A DNA stretch of 64,000 bases from Methanococcoides alaskense (GTDB lineage: Archaea; Halobacteriota; Methanosarcinia; Methanosarcinales; Methanosarcinaceae), in assembly GCF_027594145.1 (NCBI RefSeq), contig NZ_JAQFFK010000001.1, positions 434,001-498,000 of the forward strand, given 5' to 3'. Shown here piece after piece: positions 51,206 through 62,304 of the stretch (the first letter of the stretch is position 1; the number at the start of each line of letters is the position of its first letter). The translations under genes were made by a program, and so were the position numbers. The notes under the pieces are model-generated. The model was not told where the DNA came from. It saw only the letters and a program-made list of their open reading frames with translations, and did no database searches.

Positions 51206-54200
51206 ATGGAAAAAATAAATATAAATATAAAACGAATCGCTTTTTGTTCATTATTGTTATTAATTGCTATGTCGATGTCCTTTCCCGCAAATGCAACTCC
51301 ATTTGCAGGCGGAGATGGTACTGCCGGGGACCCCTATCAGATATCAACAGTTGAGCAACTTCAGAACATGAATTCTGGCCCATCAGCCAATTACATTCTG
51401 ATCAACGATATTGATGCCAGTGTCACTAGCGGCTGGAACTCGGGTGCGGGATTTAAGCCAATTGGCAATTATACAAACAAATTCACAGGTAATTTTGAGG
51501 GGCAGGATCATGAGATTACTGGACTGTACATTAATAGACCAACTACAGAATTTGTTGGACTTTTTGGATGGATTGATGTTGGTTCGGAAATTAATAATGT
51601 TGGGTTAACAGATATCAATATTACTGGTAAAAATGATGTAGGTGGCCTTGCTGGTGGAATTCAGGGGAATATCACTCTGAGTTATGCCCTTGGTGATGTA
51701 TCTGGTACTTTCGATAGGGTGGGTGGCCTTGTTGGAAATATTTATTTTGGATATGTTGATCAGAGTTATTCTACCGGTAATGTAACTGGTACTGTTGATT
51801 ATGTAGGTGGTCTTGTTGGATGGAATGAAGGTTCCGTTACTCAAAGTTATTCCACCAGCAACGTAATAAATAGTGGTGTGTGTACAGGTGGTCTTGTTGG
51901 ATTAAATCAAAATTCTATTAATGATAGCTATTCTACCGGTAATGTGAATGTTACTGGTTATTATGCAGGTAGCCTTGTTGGAGCTAATATAGGTTCTCTC
52001 AATCAAAGTTATTCCACTGGTAATGTGACCAGCAATACCTATTATGTAGGTGGTCTTACTGGTTATAGTGAGGGTTCTGTTGACCAGAGCTATTCTACCG
52101 GCAGTGTTACTGGGTTTGTAGATATAGGTGGTCTCGTTGGATGGAACTATTATGGTTCTGTTACTCAGAGTTATTCAACCAGCAGCGTTGTTGGGGGTGG
52201 AACTGACAGCAGAGCCGGAGGGCTTGTTGGAGAAAACGCTGGTCCCGTTGATTCTAGTTATTCCACCGGCAGCGTAGTTGGTAATGGTGCAAATGTAGGC
52301 GGTCTTATTGGGCAAAATTATGATTCGGTTACCAAAAGTCACTGGGATACTGAAACCTCTGGTTTAAGTACAAGTGCAGGCGGTACAGGTAATACGACGG
52401 CTGAAATGAATCTTCAGGCTACATATGTTGGTTGGGATTTCACTTCTTTATGGGCTATCGCAAGTGCTAATAATGGTGGTTATCCATGCCTTTTGAGCAA
52501 TCCCGCAGAAGTTGTTACTGCAGAGCCAAAAACCTCCCTTCTCGCAGTTCCACTCAACACTATCGACTTCGATTTCGCCAGCTCGACCTATGTTGAAGGC
52601 ATCAATGTGGAGTTCAACACATCTACGTCGGATGTCAATCTTACACTGATGAGCACCATGAACATTGTGAAGCTTACAGGTGCAAAGAACAATGATGTAT
52701 GGGTCAATGTACTCGTCGATGGGGATAGTGTGCTTGAAGAGAAAATGAGGACTCTCAGCAAAGATAGGCGTAGTTACGATGAAGGGTCCACAGGTACAAA
52801 ACCTGTCAGTATTTCGATTGCATCATCTGGTACCCACACCATTATATACGAGTTCCGCAGGACTGGAAACGGTGCTGTAGGGGTCAATGATATTGATATA
52901 AGCCTTGTAAAGTTCACCACAGCAGAAGGGAATATGGTAAGGAAGCAGCTTACAGAGGTTGATTATACTCATTCATCTTCTACATTTAGTGATTCTTTCA
53001 ACTGGTCTGTTAACAAAACAGTTGAGTCCGGAACATTTGTGATTGGAAAGTTCACTCTGGAATCAATACAGGAAGCATCTCTTCAGTACTACTATAAAGA
53101 AATGAACTCTGCTATAGCGTCCCCATCATGGGCAAGGTATATGGAGAATAGCGATGATGTGGGTTCGGTCGCCGGTATCGTTGTAGATTCAAATGAGACC
53201 ACAGCTGCAAATTACAGTATCTTCTCACAAAGCAATTCTGTTGATACTGATGTTGATGGAACAATTCTCGATTTCGATCTGAAAGATGCAAATGGTAGTG
53301 AAATTAGCAGTTTCTCAGTTTCAAACGATTCCACTGATACTACTTCAGACATCACTCTTTTATCAGGAACCCATCTCCTGGCAACCAAGAATGTTACCTT
53401 GTACAATGGCAGTGGATATTTCCTCTCAATGACCAGTTCTTTCAGTTCAGAATCTGAAAAACAAACACCTACCTATTTCATTGACTGTACTGAAGTGCCT
53501 GCAGTTTATTCAAAGAAAGAAAGGTATCTGAATTCAAACACCGATATTGGTAACTCCTACATCTACTTCACTACTGATGGTCTGACACAAGGCGAATCAT
53601 ACAACTTCAACCTCTGGGTCACAGTGGAAGATGGTGAGAGCCTCGTACAAATAGACGAGAACTTTGCTGGTTTTGAGATAAGTGAATTCGATATAACCTC
53701 CATCAATACAGCACCCATGGTGGCTATCATTGCACCTGAGCCGGATGCCAATATCTCTGGTAGTTTCTACGTGAATGCATCTATTACTGACAACAATGGT
53801 GATGTTTACATTTCCAATTTTAGTTTAAGCAATACCACAGGTGAAGTTCTTTCCTATGATGGTCTCTTCCAGGGCAACCTTTCTGTTGTAATTGTCAGCA
53901 CTCAGTTTACAGATGGTAACTACAATATTACCTGGAAAGCATGCGAGAATGAATCAACTGAACTTCTCTCTGCGGACAATGTGATTGAGATAACAATAGA
54001 CAACACTGTCCCTTTCATATCCTTCAATGATGAGACTACGGATGCAGGTAATTTCAGTCAGGACTGGATTCTTGGTAACCTCAGTTTCAGTGATTCCTGG
54101 ATCAACAGCTCTGCTATCGACCTGTACAATTCAAGTGGGTTGGTCGGTTCCAGTACTTCAGGAGTATCACCTCATTCCTACAACTTTACCTCACTTGCTG

Positions 54201-57200
54201 ATGGTTCCTATCAGATGAATGCAAGTGTTTGGGACTTTGCAGGTAATATCAATTACACCGAGACACGAGGGATACTGCTGGATACTGCTGAACCATCAAT
54301 CGATCATGGTGTAGGAACTCCATCAGGCAACTTTAGTCAGGACTGGATCCTTGGTAATGTGACTGCAATGGACAGTTATGGAGTTAGCCATCTGACGATA
54401 TCACTGTACAACAACAGTGGATTGGTAGATTCCAATACCACAGAAGTTAGTAACAGTCTGACCTCTAATTTCACAGGTCTTTCTGATGGTACCTACTACC
54501 TGAACTCTACAGTAGAGGATCTTGCAGGAAATATCAACACCACTTCAACATTGACTATTATACTGGATACCACAATGCCAGTGATAGATTTCAATGATGA
54601 GACTACGGATGCAGGTAATTTCAGTCAGGACTGGATTCTTGGTAACCTCATTTTCAGTGATGCCTGGATCAACAGCTCTGCTATCTACCTGTACAATTCA
54701 AGTGGTCTGGTCGGTTCCAGTACTTCAGGAGTATCACCTCATTCCTACAACTTTACCTCACTTGCTGATGGTTCCTATCAGATGAATGCAAGTGTTTGGG
54801 ACTTTGCAGGTAATATCAATTACACCGAGACACGAGGGATACTACTGGATACTGCTGAACCATCAATCGATCATGGCGTAGGAACTCCATCAGGCAACTT
54901 TAGTCAGGACTGGATCTTTGGTAATGTAACTGCAATAGACAGTTATGGTCTTAGCAGTCTGACGATATCACTTTACAACAACAGTGGATTGGTAGAGTCT
55001 AACGCTACAGAAGTTAGTAACAGTCTTGTCTATAATTTCACAGGTCTTTCTGATGATACCTACTACCTGAACTCTACAGTAGAGGATCTTGCAGGAAATG
55101 TCAACACCACTTCAACATTGGCTATTACACTGGATTCCACAATGCCAGTTATAGACTTCAATGATGAGACTACGGATGCAGGTAATTTCAGTCAGTTTTG
55201 GATTCTTGGTAACCTCAGTTTCAGTGATTCCTGGATCAACAGCTCTGCTATCTACCTGTACAATTCAAGTGGTCTGGTCGGTTCCAGTACTTCAGGAGTA
55301 TCACCTCATTCCTACAACTTTACCTCACTTGCTGATGGTTCCTATCAGATGAATGCAAGTGTTTGGGACTTTGCAGGCAATGTGAACAAAACGGAGACCA
55401 GACACATACTACTGGATACTGCTGAACCATCAATCGATCATGGCGTAGGAACTCCATCAGGCAACTTTAGTCAGGACTGGATCCTTGGTAATGTAACCGC
55501 AATGGACAGTTATGGTCTTAGCAGTCTGACGATATCACTGTACAACATTAGTGGATTGGTAGATTCCAATACCACAGAAGTTAGTAACAGTCTGACCTAT
55601 AATTTCATAGGTCTTTCTGATGGTACCTACTACCTGAACTCTACAGTAGAGGATCTTGCAGGAAATGTCAACACCACTTCAACATTGACTATTACACTGG
55701 ATTCCACAATGCCAGTGATAGACTTCAATGATGGTGCAACAGATGCAGGTAATTTCAGTCAGGACTGGATCCTTGGTAACCTTAGTTTCAGTGATTCCTG
55801 GATCAACAGCTCTGCTATCTACCTGTACAATTCAAGTGGGTTGGTCGGTTCCAGTACTTCAGGAGTATCACCTCATTCCTACAACTTCACCTCACTTGCT
55901 GATGGTTCCTATCAGATGAATGCAAGTGTTTGGGACTTTGCAGGTAATATCAATTACACCGAGACACGAGGGATACTGCTGGATACTGCTGAACCATCAA
56001 TCGATCATGGCGTAGGAACTCCATCAGGCAACTTTAGTCAGGATTGGATATTTGGTAATGTAACTGCAATAGACAGTTATGGTCTTAGCAGTCTGACGAT
56101 ATCACTTTACAACAACAGTGGATTGGTAGAGTCTAACGCTACAGAAGTTAGTAACAGTCTTGTCTATAATTTCACAGGTCTTTCTGATGATACCTACTAC
56201 CTGAACTCTACAGTAGAGGATCTTGCAGGAAATGTCAACACCACTTCAACATTGGCTATTACACTGGATTCCACAATGCCAGTTATAGACTTCAATGATG
56301 AGACTACGGATGCAGGTAATTTCAGTCAGTTTTGGATTCTTGGTAACCTCAGTTTCAGTGATTCCTGGATTAACAGCTCTGCTATCTACCTGTACAATTC
56401 AAGTGGTCTGGTCGGTTCCAGTACTTCAGGAGTATCACCTCATTCCTACAACTTCACCTCACTTGCTGATGGTTCCTATCAGATGAATGCAAGCGTTTGG
56501 GACTTTGCAGGCAATGTTAACAAAACGGAGACCAGACACATACTACTGGATACTGCTGAACCAGCAATCGATCATGGCGTAGGAACTCCATCAGGTAATT
56601 TCAGTCAGGACTGGATCCTTGGTAACCTCAGTTTCAGTGATTCCTGGATCAACAGCTCTGCTATCTACCTGTACAATTCAAGTGGGTTGGTCGGTTCCAG
56701 TACTTCAGGAGTATCTCCTCATTCCTACAACTTTACCTCACTTGCTGATGGTTCCTATCAGATGAATGCAAGTGTTTGGGACTTTGCAGGTAATATCAAT
56801 TACACCGAGACACGAGGGATACTACTGGATACTGCTGAACCATCAATCGATCATGGCGTAGGAACTCCATCAGGCAACTTTAGTCAGGACTGGATCCTTG
56901 GTAATGTGACTGCAATGGACAGTTATGGAGTTAGCCATCTGACGATATCACTGTACAACAACAGTGGATTGGTAGATTCCAATACCACAGAAGTTAGTAA
57001 CAGTCTGACCTCTAATTTCACAGGTCTTTCTGATGGTACCTACTACCTGAACTCTACAGTAGAGGATCTTGCAGGAAATGTCAACACCACTTCAACATTG
57101 ACTATTACACTGGATTCCACAATGCCGGTTATAGATTTCAATGATGAGACTACGGATGCAGGTAATTTCAGTCAGGACTGGATCCTTGGTAACCTCAGTT

Positions 57201-58993
57201 TCAGTGATTTCTGGATCAACAGCTCTGCTATCTACCTGTACAATTCAAGTGGGTTGGTCGGTTCCAGTACTTCAGGAGTATCTCCTCATTCCTACAACTT
57301 TACCTCACTTGCTGATGGTTCCTATCAGATGAATGCAAGCGTTTGGGACTTTGCAGGCAATGTGAACAAAACGGAGACCAGACACATACTACTGGATACT
57401 GCTGAACCAGCAATCGATCATGGCGTAGGAACTCCATCAGGTAATTTCAGTCAGGACTGGATCCTTGGTAACCTCAGTTTCAGTGATTCCTGGATCAACA
57501 GCTCTGCTATCTACCTGTACAATTCAAGTGGTCTGGTCGGTTCCAGTACTTCAGGAGTATCTCCTCATTCCTACAACTTTACCTCACTTGCTGATGGTTC
57601 CTATCAGATGAATGCAAGTGTTTGGGACTTTGCAGGCAATATCAATTACACCGAGACACGTGGGATACTGCTGGATATTAATGATCCTGAAATAACATTT
57701 GATGCCTCCACACTGGAAATTGGTAATCATTCACAGGACTGGATATTTGGTAATGTCACAGCATCAGACAATCTCGGAATAGCAAACATCACATTTTATC
57801 TGTACAACAGTACAGGCCTGTTCAATTCCACATCTTATTCAGGAAATGACATGTCAATGAACTTCACATCATTGCCATCAGGAATTTACTACCTGAATGT
57901 GAGCGTTGAAGACCTTGCAGGGAATATTGTGATGACAGATACGAAGATGTATGGTATCGATGCTATTGATATGGAAATAACCAATGTAGGCGTAGCATCC
58001 CTATCTGATAATTCTGCAATTATTACATGGGATACGAACGAGAATGCAAACTCAACAGTTTACTATGGACTGGATGCAAATCTAACCATGAATGTTTCAA
58101 AAACATTATTTATAGTGGACCATAGAATCACACTCGATAACCTCGGGCAAAATACATTGTATTACTACAAGGTCGAAAGCTACGATATGTTCGGATTCAA
58201 TAATTCATCTAAGATCGGCACTTTCACCACAGATATTAAAAAATCCACTGGTGGAGGTAGTGGCGGTAGCGGTGGTTTCAACTATTACTCCGATGAACCT
58301 TTGGAAAACCCGGAGGGAGATAATGAACCATGCGGCTCTGTCTCCGAAGGTACAAAAGCAGTAAATGTCGGAAGCGTTCAGGCAGGCGATACGGTAAAGG
58401 TCAGTACAACAGAATATGTAGATGTAGGGGACTGTATGGTCACAGGACTGGACATCGATATGAAAAATAATGTCGATGACATGGGAGTGATTATAACGCA
58501 AAGTTCCTCCTCCTCCTAGGAAAATTCATCCGATGTAACGTTGCTCATTGGTAATGGTGCACAGACCTATGGTTTCTTCACCATCGATACCAACAGTCCC
58601 GGAAGTACTGAAAGTGCTTTGGTACACATTCGTGTCCCATTTGCATGGTATGAGCAGAACGAGCTTGACCTGACCACAACCATCGCGACCCATTGCGGCG
58701 ATAATTCAACCGTTTGGGAAGTACTTGATGTTGTTTCTTCTTCAGAAGATGGGGGATATTACTACTTCACAGTGATGACACCTGGATTCTCTGAATTCTC
58801 AGTGGCAGCATTGCCATTTGAAATGGCAGTGGAATTCCCTGTGGATGAGGAAGCTATAGCAGATGTAGATCATACAGATGAAGTTGTAGAAAGCCGGATA
58901 AAAAGTTCGATGTGGTTTATTCCTGTGATCGCAGGAATACTGGGTATTTTGTTCATCATCATTTGGAAGAGAAGGAAAGATGAAGATGAATAA
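51206..58993 (+). CDS. Giant surface protein: GLUG repeats, 14 Ig-like modules, FN3, PGF-pre-PGF domain with in-frame TAG
   Basis: The frame runs 2437 residues to TAG 58517-58519 and then continues in the same frame for 157 more codons to TAA. A signal peptide (FCSLLLLIAMSMSFPANA) comes first. GLUG-type repeats (VGGLVGWNEGSVTQSYSTSN) fill about residues 115-400. A beta-domain follows (about 440-930), then 14 Ig-like modules (about 936-2250). An FN3-like module (SAIITWDTNENANSTVYYGL) and a Gly/Ser linker come next. The PGF-pre-PGF domain (GTKAVNVGSVQAGDTVKVST ... YYYFTVMTPGFSEFSVAALP) is split by the TAG in SSSSS-TAG-ENSSDV. A membrane helix (FIPVIAGILGILFIIIW) and a KRRKDEDE tail end the protein. 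Sequons are dense. A pyrrolysine or suppressed UAG is inferred; premature termination would lose the anchor. Confidence 0.85.
54023..57680 (+). repeat. 567-bp tandem DNA repeats encoding paired Ig-like modules
   Basis: The phrase FNDETTDAGNFSQDWILGNL (or a near variant) recurs at 54023, 54590, 55157, 55724 and 56291, exactly 567 bases apart, and again at 57137, 846 bases later. Each unit is two modules of about 94 residues: type A (FNDETTDAGNFSQ) and type B (IDHGVGTPSGNFSQ). Copies are nearly identical in DNA. Two modules (from about 56560 and 57410) start as B and switch to A after NFSQDWILGN, as expected from unequal crossing-over. A diverged last module ends the series near 57960. Confidence 0.9.
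58517..58519 (+). other. In-frame TAG within the PGF-pre-PGF domain (candidate pyrrolysine codon)
   Basis: TAG separates SSSSS from ENSSDVTLLIGNGAQTYG without a frame change. The following 157 codons complete the conserved domain and add a membrane anchor. A hairpin terminator lies just after the downstream TAA, not after the TAG. Confidence 0.75.
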
Positions 58994-60963: not shown

Positions 60964-62304
60964 ATGGGTACACATAACAATCCACAAATCGTTGTTCGTG
61001 ATATATTAATTATTTTAGTTTTAACCATTATTGTTGGGATTATCTCTACAACTTTTAATTTATTTGAAAAAATCTTTTTTAAACTAAATGTATATGATCA
61101 GTATGGGATATATGAATTATCTTTAGCAGGCATATTTTTAATAGCTTCTCTCTTTGTTTTTTCCTATCTCCTTTATCTTGAGATAAAAAGTGCATCTTTC
61201 AAATTAGCTGAATCTAGTACTAATTTTCAGGATATTTTTGACAATTCCAATGGTTCAATAGTCATTTTTGAAGAGGATGGATCGATCATAAATGCAAACA
61301 TGACAACTTCATTAACACTGGGTTATAGCAAGGATGGGCTATTGAACATGTCTATTCATGATCTGTATGTTTCTCCTCTAAAAATAAAAGATCTCAATAA
61401 TGAAAATGTTCAATCACATAACACATCTTTTATATTGGATACAGAGGCCATTCACAAAGACGGATCTAGGATCCCTGTGGAAATGAGTAGTAGGTCATTC
61501 ATCTATGATGGTCATCCCTGTGTGATTATCGATGCCAAGGACATTACCGAACGTAAGAATACTCAAATTGCGATAAATGCAAGGATACAAGCCGAAGAAG
61601 CTAACCAGATTAAATCAGATTTCATTGCAAAAATGAGCCATGAGCTACGTACACCTCTTAATTCGATCATCGGCTTCTCACAGTTTCTAAATACTAATCC
61701 TTTTGGTAATCTGAATGAAAAAGAGATCAAATATTCAAAAAATATCTTGAACAGTGGAAGGCACTTATTGGAACTGATGGATGAAATTCTTGATCTCGCT
61801 AAGATCGAAAATGGGAAAACTTATCTTCAATCTGAAAAGATAAGCTTGCCGATATTCTTTTTGGAAATTGAAGAGATGGTAAAACATCTGGCATACAAAA
61901 AGAACATTCAAATCTGTAATCAAGCTCGTTATGAAAGAATTGAAATGTATGCTGATAGATTAAGGATGAGGCAAATATTATATAATCTACTAAGCAATTC
62001 TTTGAAGTTCACACCTGAAAATGGCAGCATATAGATTAACGCGATTGATTATGATAATATGATGGAGATATCTGTATCTGATAATGGCATTGGTATTCCC
62101 AAAAATATGCATGATGAGATTTTTGAGAGTTTCAAACAGGCTGATCCTTCAATTACGAATAAATATGGTGGCACAGGCTTAGGATTGACCCTGGTTAAGC
62201 AATATGTTGAGATGCATGGCGGAAATATATGGGTTGATAGTGAAGAGGGTGCAGGGAGCACTTTTACTTTCACAATACCTTCAAATTCTGACTTACAGCA
62301 ATGA
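60964..62304 (+). CDS. PAS-domain sensor histidine kinase with in-frame TAG in the ATPase domain
   Basis: Two N-terminal helices (IIVGIISTTFNLF region and LAGIFLIASLFVFSYLLYLE) frame a short outer loop. A PAS domain follows at about 90-195 (FQDIFDNSNGSIVIFEEDGS). HisKA has FIAKMSHELRTPLNSIIGFS near 220, the His being the phosphorylation site. The N-box is RQILYNLLSNSLKFTPENGS near 345. TAG at 62032-62034 comes two codons later, and the frame goes on with MMEISVSDNGIGIPKN (G1), ADPSITNKYGGTGLGLTLVK (F and G2 boxes) to TGA 62302-62304. The ATPase domain is complete only across the TAG, so pyrrolysine or a misread codon is likely. TATA-like GTTATATAC lies near 60937. No response regulator is adjacent. 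Confidence 0.82.
62032..62034 (+). other. In-frame TAG in the histidine kinase (candidate pyrrolysine codon)
   Basis: It falls between PENGSI and INAIDYDNMMEISVSDN with no frame change, on the strand after the N-box where other kinases usually have a variable polar residue. All later ATP-binding motifs are intact. Confidence 0.75.

Follow-up and report, generated by a model that had tools for sequence, protein, structure and literature searches.

A putative family of pyrrolysine-containing sensor histidine kinases in the genus Methanococcoides

A sensor histidine kinase gene of Methanococcoides alaskense is interrupted by one in-frame TAG, and the same codon is TAG in all 20 kinase genes of its clade, extracted from all 11 Methanococcoides genomes and aligned to a single column. 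We hold with good confidence that these genes encode a family of sensor kinases containing pyrrolysine (Pyl), the rare 22nd amino acid, and that selection has kept it. Judged from the sequences, UAG of the kinase is very likely decoded as a sense codon, and Pyl is the sole candidate residue whose machinery was found in the genome. In the proposed explanation UAG would be translated as Pyl by tRNA-Pyl(CUA) and PylS, giving a full-length, membrane-bound sensor histidine kinase of the PAS type. Its Pyl, at residue 357, would lie in the first beta strand of the ATPase domain that follows the N box and would probably face away from the hydrophobic core. This residue would have been fixed once, ahead of the radiation of the genus, and then retained by purifying selection through gene duplication and exchange of sensor domains. 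We infer Pyl insertion and a full-length product, and likewise that the active kinase depends on the Pyl supply of the cell: a 356-aa product would miss the G1, F and G2 boxes, so Pyl would be needed for activity. Pyl would thus enter signalling, beyond methylamine digestion. Annotation that treats TAG as a stop would then split a whole set of sensor kinases in two.

The kinase gene and the position of its TAG

The window, that is, the whole stretch of 64,000 nucleotides analysed here, corresponds to G000:C1:434001-498000 and comes from a 1.97-Mb assembly estimated to be 77% complete. The kinase frame lies on the forward strand, as do all features described below for this gene. It runs from ATG at 60964 to TGA at 62302-62304 and, by ORF translation and Pfam comparison, encodes a sensor histidine kinase of 446 aa when TAG is read through (60964..62304). 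Two N-terminal membrane helices were placed approximately, by eye, at 60997..61182 (helices 7-43 and 49-94 in the structure model). They are followed by a PAS domain (PAS_9 and PAS in Pfam; residues 88-196, 61225..61551) and by the HisKA dimerisation and phosphoacceptor domain (PF00512; residues 217-284, 61612..61815), which scored 64.3 bits against a cut-off of 26.9 (E 1.1e-17, TAG read through). The HATPase_c domain (PF02518; residues 331-440, 61954..62283) scored 112.1 bits against a cut-off of 26.4 (E 2.5e-32) and spans the TAG.

All motif boxes are intact in the read-through translation. These are the H box MSHELRTP with the phosphoacceptor His226 (61639..61641; invariant in alignment A1), the N box NLLSN (residues 341-345, 61984..61998), the G1 box DNGIGI (residues 373-378, 62080..62097), the F box and the G2 box GGTGLGL (residues 402-408, 62167..62187). 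The names and definitions of the H, N, G1, F and G2 boxes, and the phosphoacceptor role of His226, follow general usage. Across the 18 rows of alignment A1 the five boxes are invariant or nearly so. By its domains and boxes, as read from the sequence, the gene is assigned to the HisKA/HATPase_c sensor histidine kinases. The same domains occur in PDB entries 2c2a and 3dge (presumably both HK853), matched by profile A1 with E 2.1e-56; the related chain 4jas has Lys at the aligned place and not a UAG codon.

The TAG at 62032-62034 (62032..62034) is codon 357 and the sole in-frame stop inside the ORF; it would encode the putative Pyl, in the first strand to follow the N box. In the model of the window kinase (mean pLDDT 72, pTM 0.44) residues 355-364 form one strand. 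The first-pass annotation had rightly put this TAG inside the ATPase domain, between the N box and G1, but its distance of two codons after the N box has to be corrected, as the TAG sits 12 codons past N345, directly after the KFTPENGSI stretch. Its description of G1, F and G2 as intact and in the same frame downstream agrees with the translation and with alignment A1. Termination at the TAG would leave a 356-aa product without these three boxes.

Conservation of the TAG and selection on it

With the read-through protein as query, the 20 best matches in the 11 genomes contained one stop each, always TAG, and no genome lacked a kinase with a single TAG at the site. There is no second internal stop in any of these genes, and their own terminators are TAA (13) and TGA (7), never TAG. 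The matching gene of Methanococcoides sp. SMBSF09 is 95% identical to the window kinase; as locus L039 it was the sole one resembling the TAG clade among the 80 related loci listed. The TAG site is common to three architectures: the short membrane PAS kinase of the window type, HisKA_7TM-PAS-GAF-PAS and a multi-PAS form (10 of the 20 genes were domain-scanned, and the other 10 were assigned by length and alignment). For the kinase of genome G001 the predicted tryptic peptide that spans Pyl is FTPENGC-I-Pyl-INVVNCDDMLEISVSDNGIGIPK.

A profile made from 18 clade kinases was run against 111 genomes of the family, 11 from the genus and 100 from other genera. The 20 TAG genes scored 564-693 bits, and the best of the matches listed from the 100 genomes of other genera reached 454 bits and had no stop; in most of the 111 genomes at most 17 candidates were scored, so that weaker TAG kinases may occur in other genera. 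With the window protein as query in eight genomes of three other genera, four TAG-bearing kinases appeared among the matches listed, with TAG at residue equivalents 442, 368, 158 and 253 and none at 357, together with eight matches holding only TAA or TGA. On this evidence the kinase group with this TAG was found only in Methanococcoides.

How firmly is the codon held? It is one of nine codons, out of 232, that are identical in all 20 genes. At the amino-acid level the clade shows no variation in as many as 87 of the 232 columns, so that an invariant column is not rare by itself; the argument is carried by the contrast with outside homologues, together with the neutral estimate given below. 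The 15 sense homologues have eight residue types at this site (T, M, V, C, K, I, S and L), which makes the TAG column the third most variable in these homologues among the 87 clade-invariant ones. In a tree built without the TAG column and its two neighbours, and without L004 and L029 (no motif found), one branch parts the 20 TAG genes from the 15 sense homologues, consistent with one change; its support is 94/91, the value of 94 being just below the starred level of 95. Tree length was 4.4 for third positions and 5.95 for fourfold sites. For a freely replaceable TAG a rough estimate (3 sites x length x 7/9), derived from near-saturated sites, gives about 10-14 expected changes, while none was seen. 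Median dN/dS was 0.18 before the TAG and 0.13 after it by a simple counting method (162 of 190 pairs, not independent of each other; 28 pairs with infinite or tiny dS were left out). Selection thus appears, from these comparisons, to keep the TAG codon in the clade.

The view of the first-pass annotation that neutral decay hardly explains this TAG is strengthened by its presence in 20 genes that lack any other stop and are under purifying selection downstream. Comparison of orthologues, which it had proposed, found TAG at the site in 20 of 20 genes with the downstream part kept; it had named loss of that part, extra lesions and a sequence correction as grounds for doubt. No further stop occurs in the window copy or in any of the 20 genes, and a sequencing error is excluded because 11 assemblies carry the same TAG. 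Sequencing error, neutral decay and start or stop artefacts were all ruled out by the 20-gene conservation.

The codon before the TAG ends in A throughout the clade (ATA in 17 genes, GTA in 3). Context selection was considered for this wobble A and dropped, because the third base does not vary in 22 of the 232 columns and because GGT precedes the TAG in two further kinase groups, X and Y, described below.

Pyrrolysine machinery and use of TAG

A 20-kb stretch of the same genome (L149 of G000) contains tRNA-Pyl with anticodon CUA, followed by PylS, PylB, PylC and PylD; MtbA is also there. Against the NCBIfam cut-offs (in brackets) PylS scored 721.4 (550), PylB 583.8 (348.2), PylC 575 (248.3) and PylD 399.7 (150.05). 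With these proteins and the tRNA in the genome, decoding of UAG as Pyl, which the first-pass annotation had raised conditionally, is the natural reading. No stable RNA element was detected when the 100 nt after the TAG of the window copy were folded (z 0.48); according to PMC3639795, a PYLIS-like element is absent from some Pyl genes.

TAG is scarce as a terminator in the sampled stretches. The stops of 219 ORFs were TGA in 128 cases, TAA in 86 and TAG in 5, counted over mechanically called ORFs of 150 aa or more from 19 of the 21 stretches (the window and 20 others; L154 and L167 omitted for overlaps), with the clade kinases set aside. When both strands of the window are counted, 19% of stop triplets are TAG, so its scarcity at ORF ends is not compositional. 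Past the five TAG ends the frame stays open for 157, 479, 610, 51 (near a contig end) and 42 codons, the last being pylB. A 2025 paper in Science reportedly describes archaea that read all TAG codons as Pyl (the 'Pyl code'); it may list this kinase and may have widened the set of Pyl proteins past Thg1. Scarce TAG terminators in the sampled stretches fit such a code, but the code is genome-wide whereas the constraint seen in the kinase is site-specific. In M. burtonii pylB also ends in TAG (PMC2933860).

The methylamine methyltransferases served as positive controls in the 11 genomes. MtmB gave 42 matches, of which the best 19, in nine genomes, had one TAG each; the other 23, fragments included, had none, and G003 and G007 yielded fragments and sense-type copies only. 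For MtbB, one TAG was present in 24 of 25 matches, one of the 24 holding TAA as well. MttB gave 23 matches, 15 with one TAG (in all 11 genomes), two with TAA and six without a stop. Like the kinases, MtmB, MtbB and MttB have one conserved in-frame UAG per gene and sense homologues outside; in these 11 genomes the comparison was made by the number of TAGs per gene. By this shared pattern the kinase family looks like a classic Pyl family. It differs in place and role: in the methyltransferases Pyl belongs to the catalytic site for methyl transfer (PMC2933860), whereas in the kinase it would lie in a signalling ATPase domain. Two high-scoring matches of MttB type, G006:C99:7836-9260 and G010:C10:162034-163455, have one internal TAA instead of TAG.

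Pyl outside methylamine metabolism has a precedent in Thg1, the tRNA-His guanylyltransferase of Methanosarcina acetivorans, which also has sense homologues; by 2010 it was the one protein beyond the methylamine methyltransferases in which Pyl had been physically seen (PMC2933860). The TAG of Thg1, however, occurs in one species only and its Pyl is non-essential (same source), whereas the kinase TAG is fixed in 11 genomes and in several paralogues. A predicted sensory histidine kinase with an in-frame UAG, and thus similar in kind, was described as cluster 16 in M. acetivorans, M. mahii and M. barkeri, with selection proposed (PMC3639795). The species given for it there do not include Methanococcoides, to which the present clade belongs. 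Among the matches listed, two that may or may not belong to cluster 16 have TAG at other places: L176 (G074) at residue equivalent 442, at the end of the kinase domain, and L179 (G033) at 253. A histidine kinase of marine Deltaproteobacteria is likewise predicted to contain a recoded stop, but it involves UGA and selenocysteine, is bacterial and is an unverified candidate (PMC8318568). A Pyl kinase is not described in the portions consulted of PMC13044021, PMC4928046, PMC8211752, PMC1914089, PMC9499178 and PMC11363022, and those of PMC5378194 and PMC9723798 treat kinases and Pyl apart.

Other TAG kinases and the possible role of the residue

A census of the 11 genomes gave 440 kinase-like matches, of which 35 had TAG and 26 had only TAA or TGA. 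The 35 comprise the 20 clade genes, three genes of group X, three of group Y and nine scattered ones. Outside the clade, TAG is not in excess (15 matches against 26). Group X was found in G000, G006 and G008 and group Y in G006, G007 and G008 (loci L008, L170 and L171, and L172, L180 and L181); the two are 40% identical to each other. In both, TAG stands at the equivalent of residue 355, two codons ahead of the clade site, a place taken by Ser (TCA, TCG), Asn or Thr in nine sense relatives (L185, with a misframed segment, was left out). The TAGs of X and Y were gained separately from that of the clade. In 35 aligned kinases residues 356 and 358 are Ile, Val or Leu without exception, which does not hold for 355 and 357, and this alternation suggests that 355 and 357 face away from the core. 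We infer from alignment and model that they lie on the same non-core strand face in all three groups. TAG at these positions in three groups may reflect convergent use or a tolerant surface. Four of the nine scattered matches were inspected (L169, L173, L182, L183); TAG falls at residue equivalent 383 in L169 and at 185 in L173.

In our view Pyl is most likely kept because it acts in structure or in interactions, on the ATPase domain's exposed face, with Pyl supply as a secondary gate. A genus-wide selected Pyl in a regulatory enzyme would make the question of why Pyl is used beyond methylamines directly testable. A bolder possibility, unlikely but worth stating, is that Pyl is a working signalling residue, whose ring binds or reacts with amines, ammonium or a nucleophile or whose supply gates the kinase, so that methylamine state is coupled to the phosphorelay. 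If so, the electrophilic ring of a Pyl on the outside of the ATPase domain would react with or bind small amines, ammonium or a nucleophile of a partner, and three kinase groups with TAG at 355 or 357 would be a case of convergent use of Pyl at one site.

The neighbourhood says little in favour of a methylamine connection, which the first-pass annotation had suggested and which is so far weak. Out of 20 kinase genes, one had methylamine methyltransferase genes within about 12 kb: a G001 gene (C1:2425302-2426927), which lies about 8.6 kb after a broken mtbB (two pieces, TAA) and about 11 kb before mttB. For the other 19 the next nearest is about 50 kb away (G008) or more, or on another contig, and neither the window nor L149-L168 yielded an MtmB match. 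More than 300 kb of one contig separate the pyl genes of G000 from both its kinases. Several clade genes are on short contigs, and proximity is therefore no strong test. The link is an idea drawn from the way of life of the host and from Pyl chemistry (PMC2933860). Twenty neighbours of clade genes were scanned and included MarC, VTT, TrkH, catalase, EamA, a betaine-type ABC transporter and other kinases; also among them were radical SAM proteins, an FMN oxidoreductase, an integrase and a phosphatase-type enzyme, and some matched no family. Two small membrane-type proteins follow the 7TM-type TAG kinases in G002, G003, G005 and G010, and these (L152:10561-11557, L168:10425-11377) gave no Pfam or NCBIfam family. 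TAGs at codons 3 and 15 of the betaine-type ABC ATPase beside the second G000 kinase were dropped as a putative over-extended 5' end.

Could the codon itself be selected, and not the side chain, so that the kinase is active only when Pyl-tRNA is plentiful? Termination would indeed cost the protein G1, F and G2, the 356-aa form, still carrying HisKA, might serve as an inactive dimer partner, one ancestral gain accounts for the single position, and the G001 gene lies between the broken mtbB and mttB, 9-11 kb off. We nevertheless consider such a gate, as the main reason for the TAG, quite unlikely. Two other groups gained TAG at residue 355, two codons away, which argues that the position matters and not just the interruption; for the other 19 genes no methylamine methyltransferase gene was found close by, though some contigs are short; and TAG is scarce as a terminator, so termination at UAG may be rare.

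Still more doubtful is a tolerated, functionless Pyl, inserted because UAG is a sense codon in the genus, where any residue would serve. The scattered TAGs of kinases such as L169 and L173 speak for it, as do the variable strand position that the site represents in sense homologues and the precedent of Thg1 in M. acetivorans (PMC2933860), but with free replacement the roughly 10-14 neutral changes estimated above would be expected, against none in the 20 genes. A terminated gene or decaying pseudogene, which follows from reading TAG as a stop in table 11, is hardly credible when 20 orthologues and paralogues share the TAG, have no other stop and show downstream dN/dS well below 1. A split protein, with translation ending at the TAG and starting again from an ATG further on (62059 in the window), deserves as little credence: such an ATG lies nine codons past the TAG in 14 of the 20 genes, but five have none within 45 codons (codon 9 is GTG or TTG in one of them), one more has ATG at codon 3 only, and re-initiation at 62059 would omit the start of the strand. 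Re-initiation as a general mechanism was rejected because there is no conserved Met past the TAG.

Several other genes with TAG deserve mention. L161:2316-4619 (+) in G007 and L165:2872-5736 (-) in G008 resemble each other and have one in-frame TAG each, with 479 and 610 open codons beyond it. L166:10965-11681 (-) and L154:7620-8351 (+) belong to one neighbour cluster and have internal TAGs at codons 71 and 108. In the part of the window near the kinase another TAG, at 58517-58519, terminates a long ORF that starts at 51206. This repetitive, surface-type ORF of 2437 aa (51206-58993, +) could continue for 157 further codons to a TAA, and the extension has a C-terminal membrane-like helix, which makes it a second candidate read-through gene.
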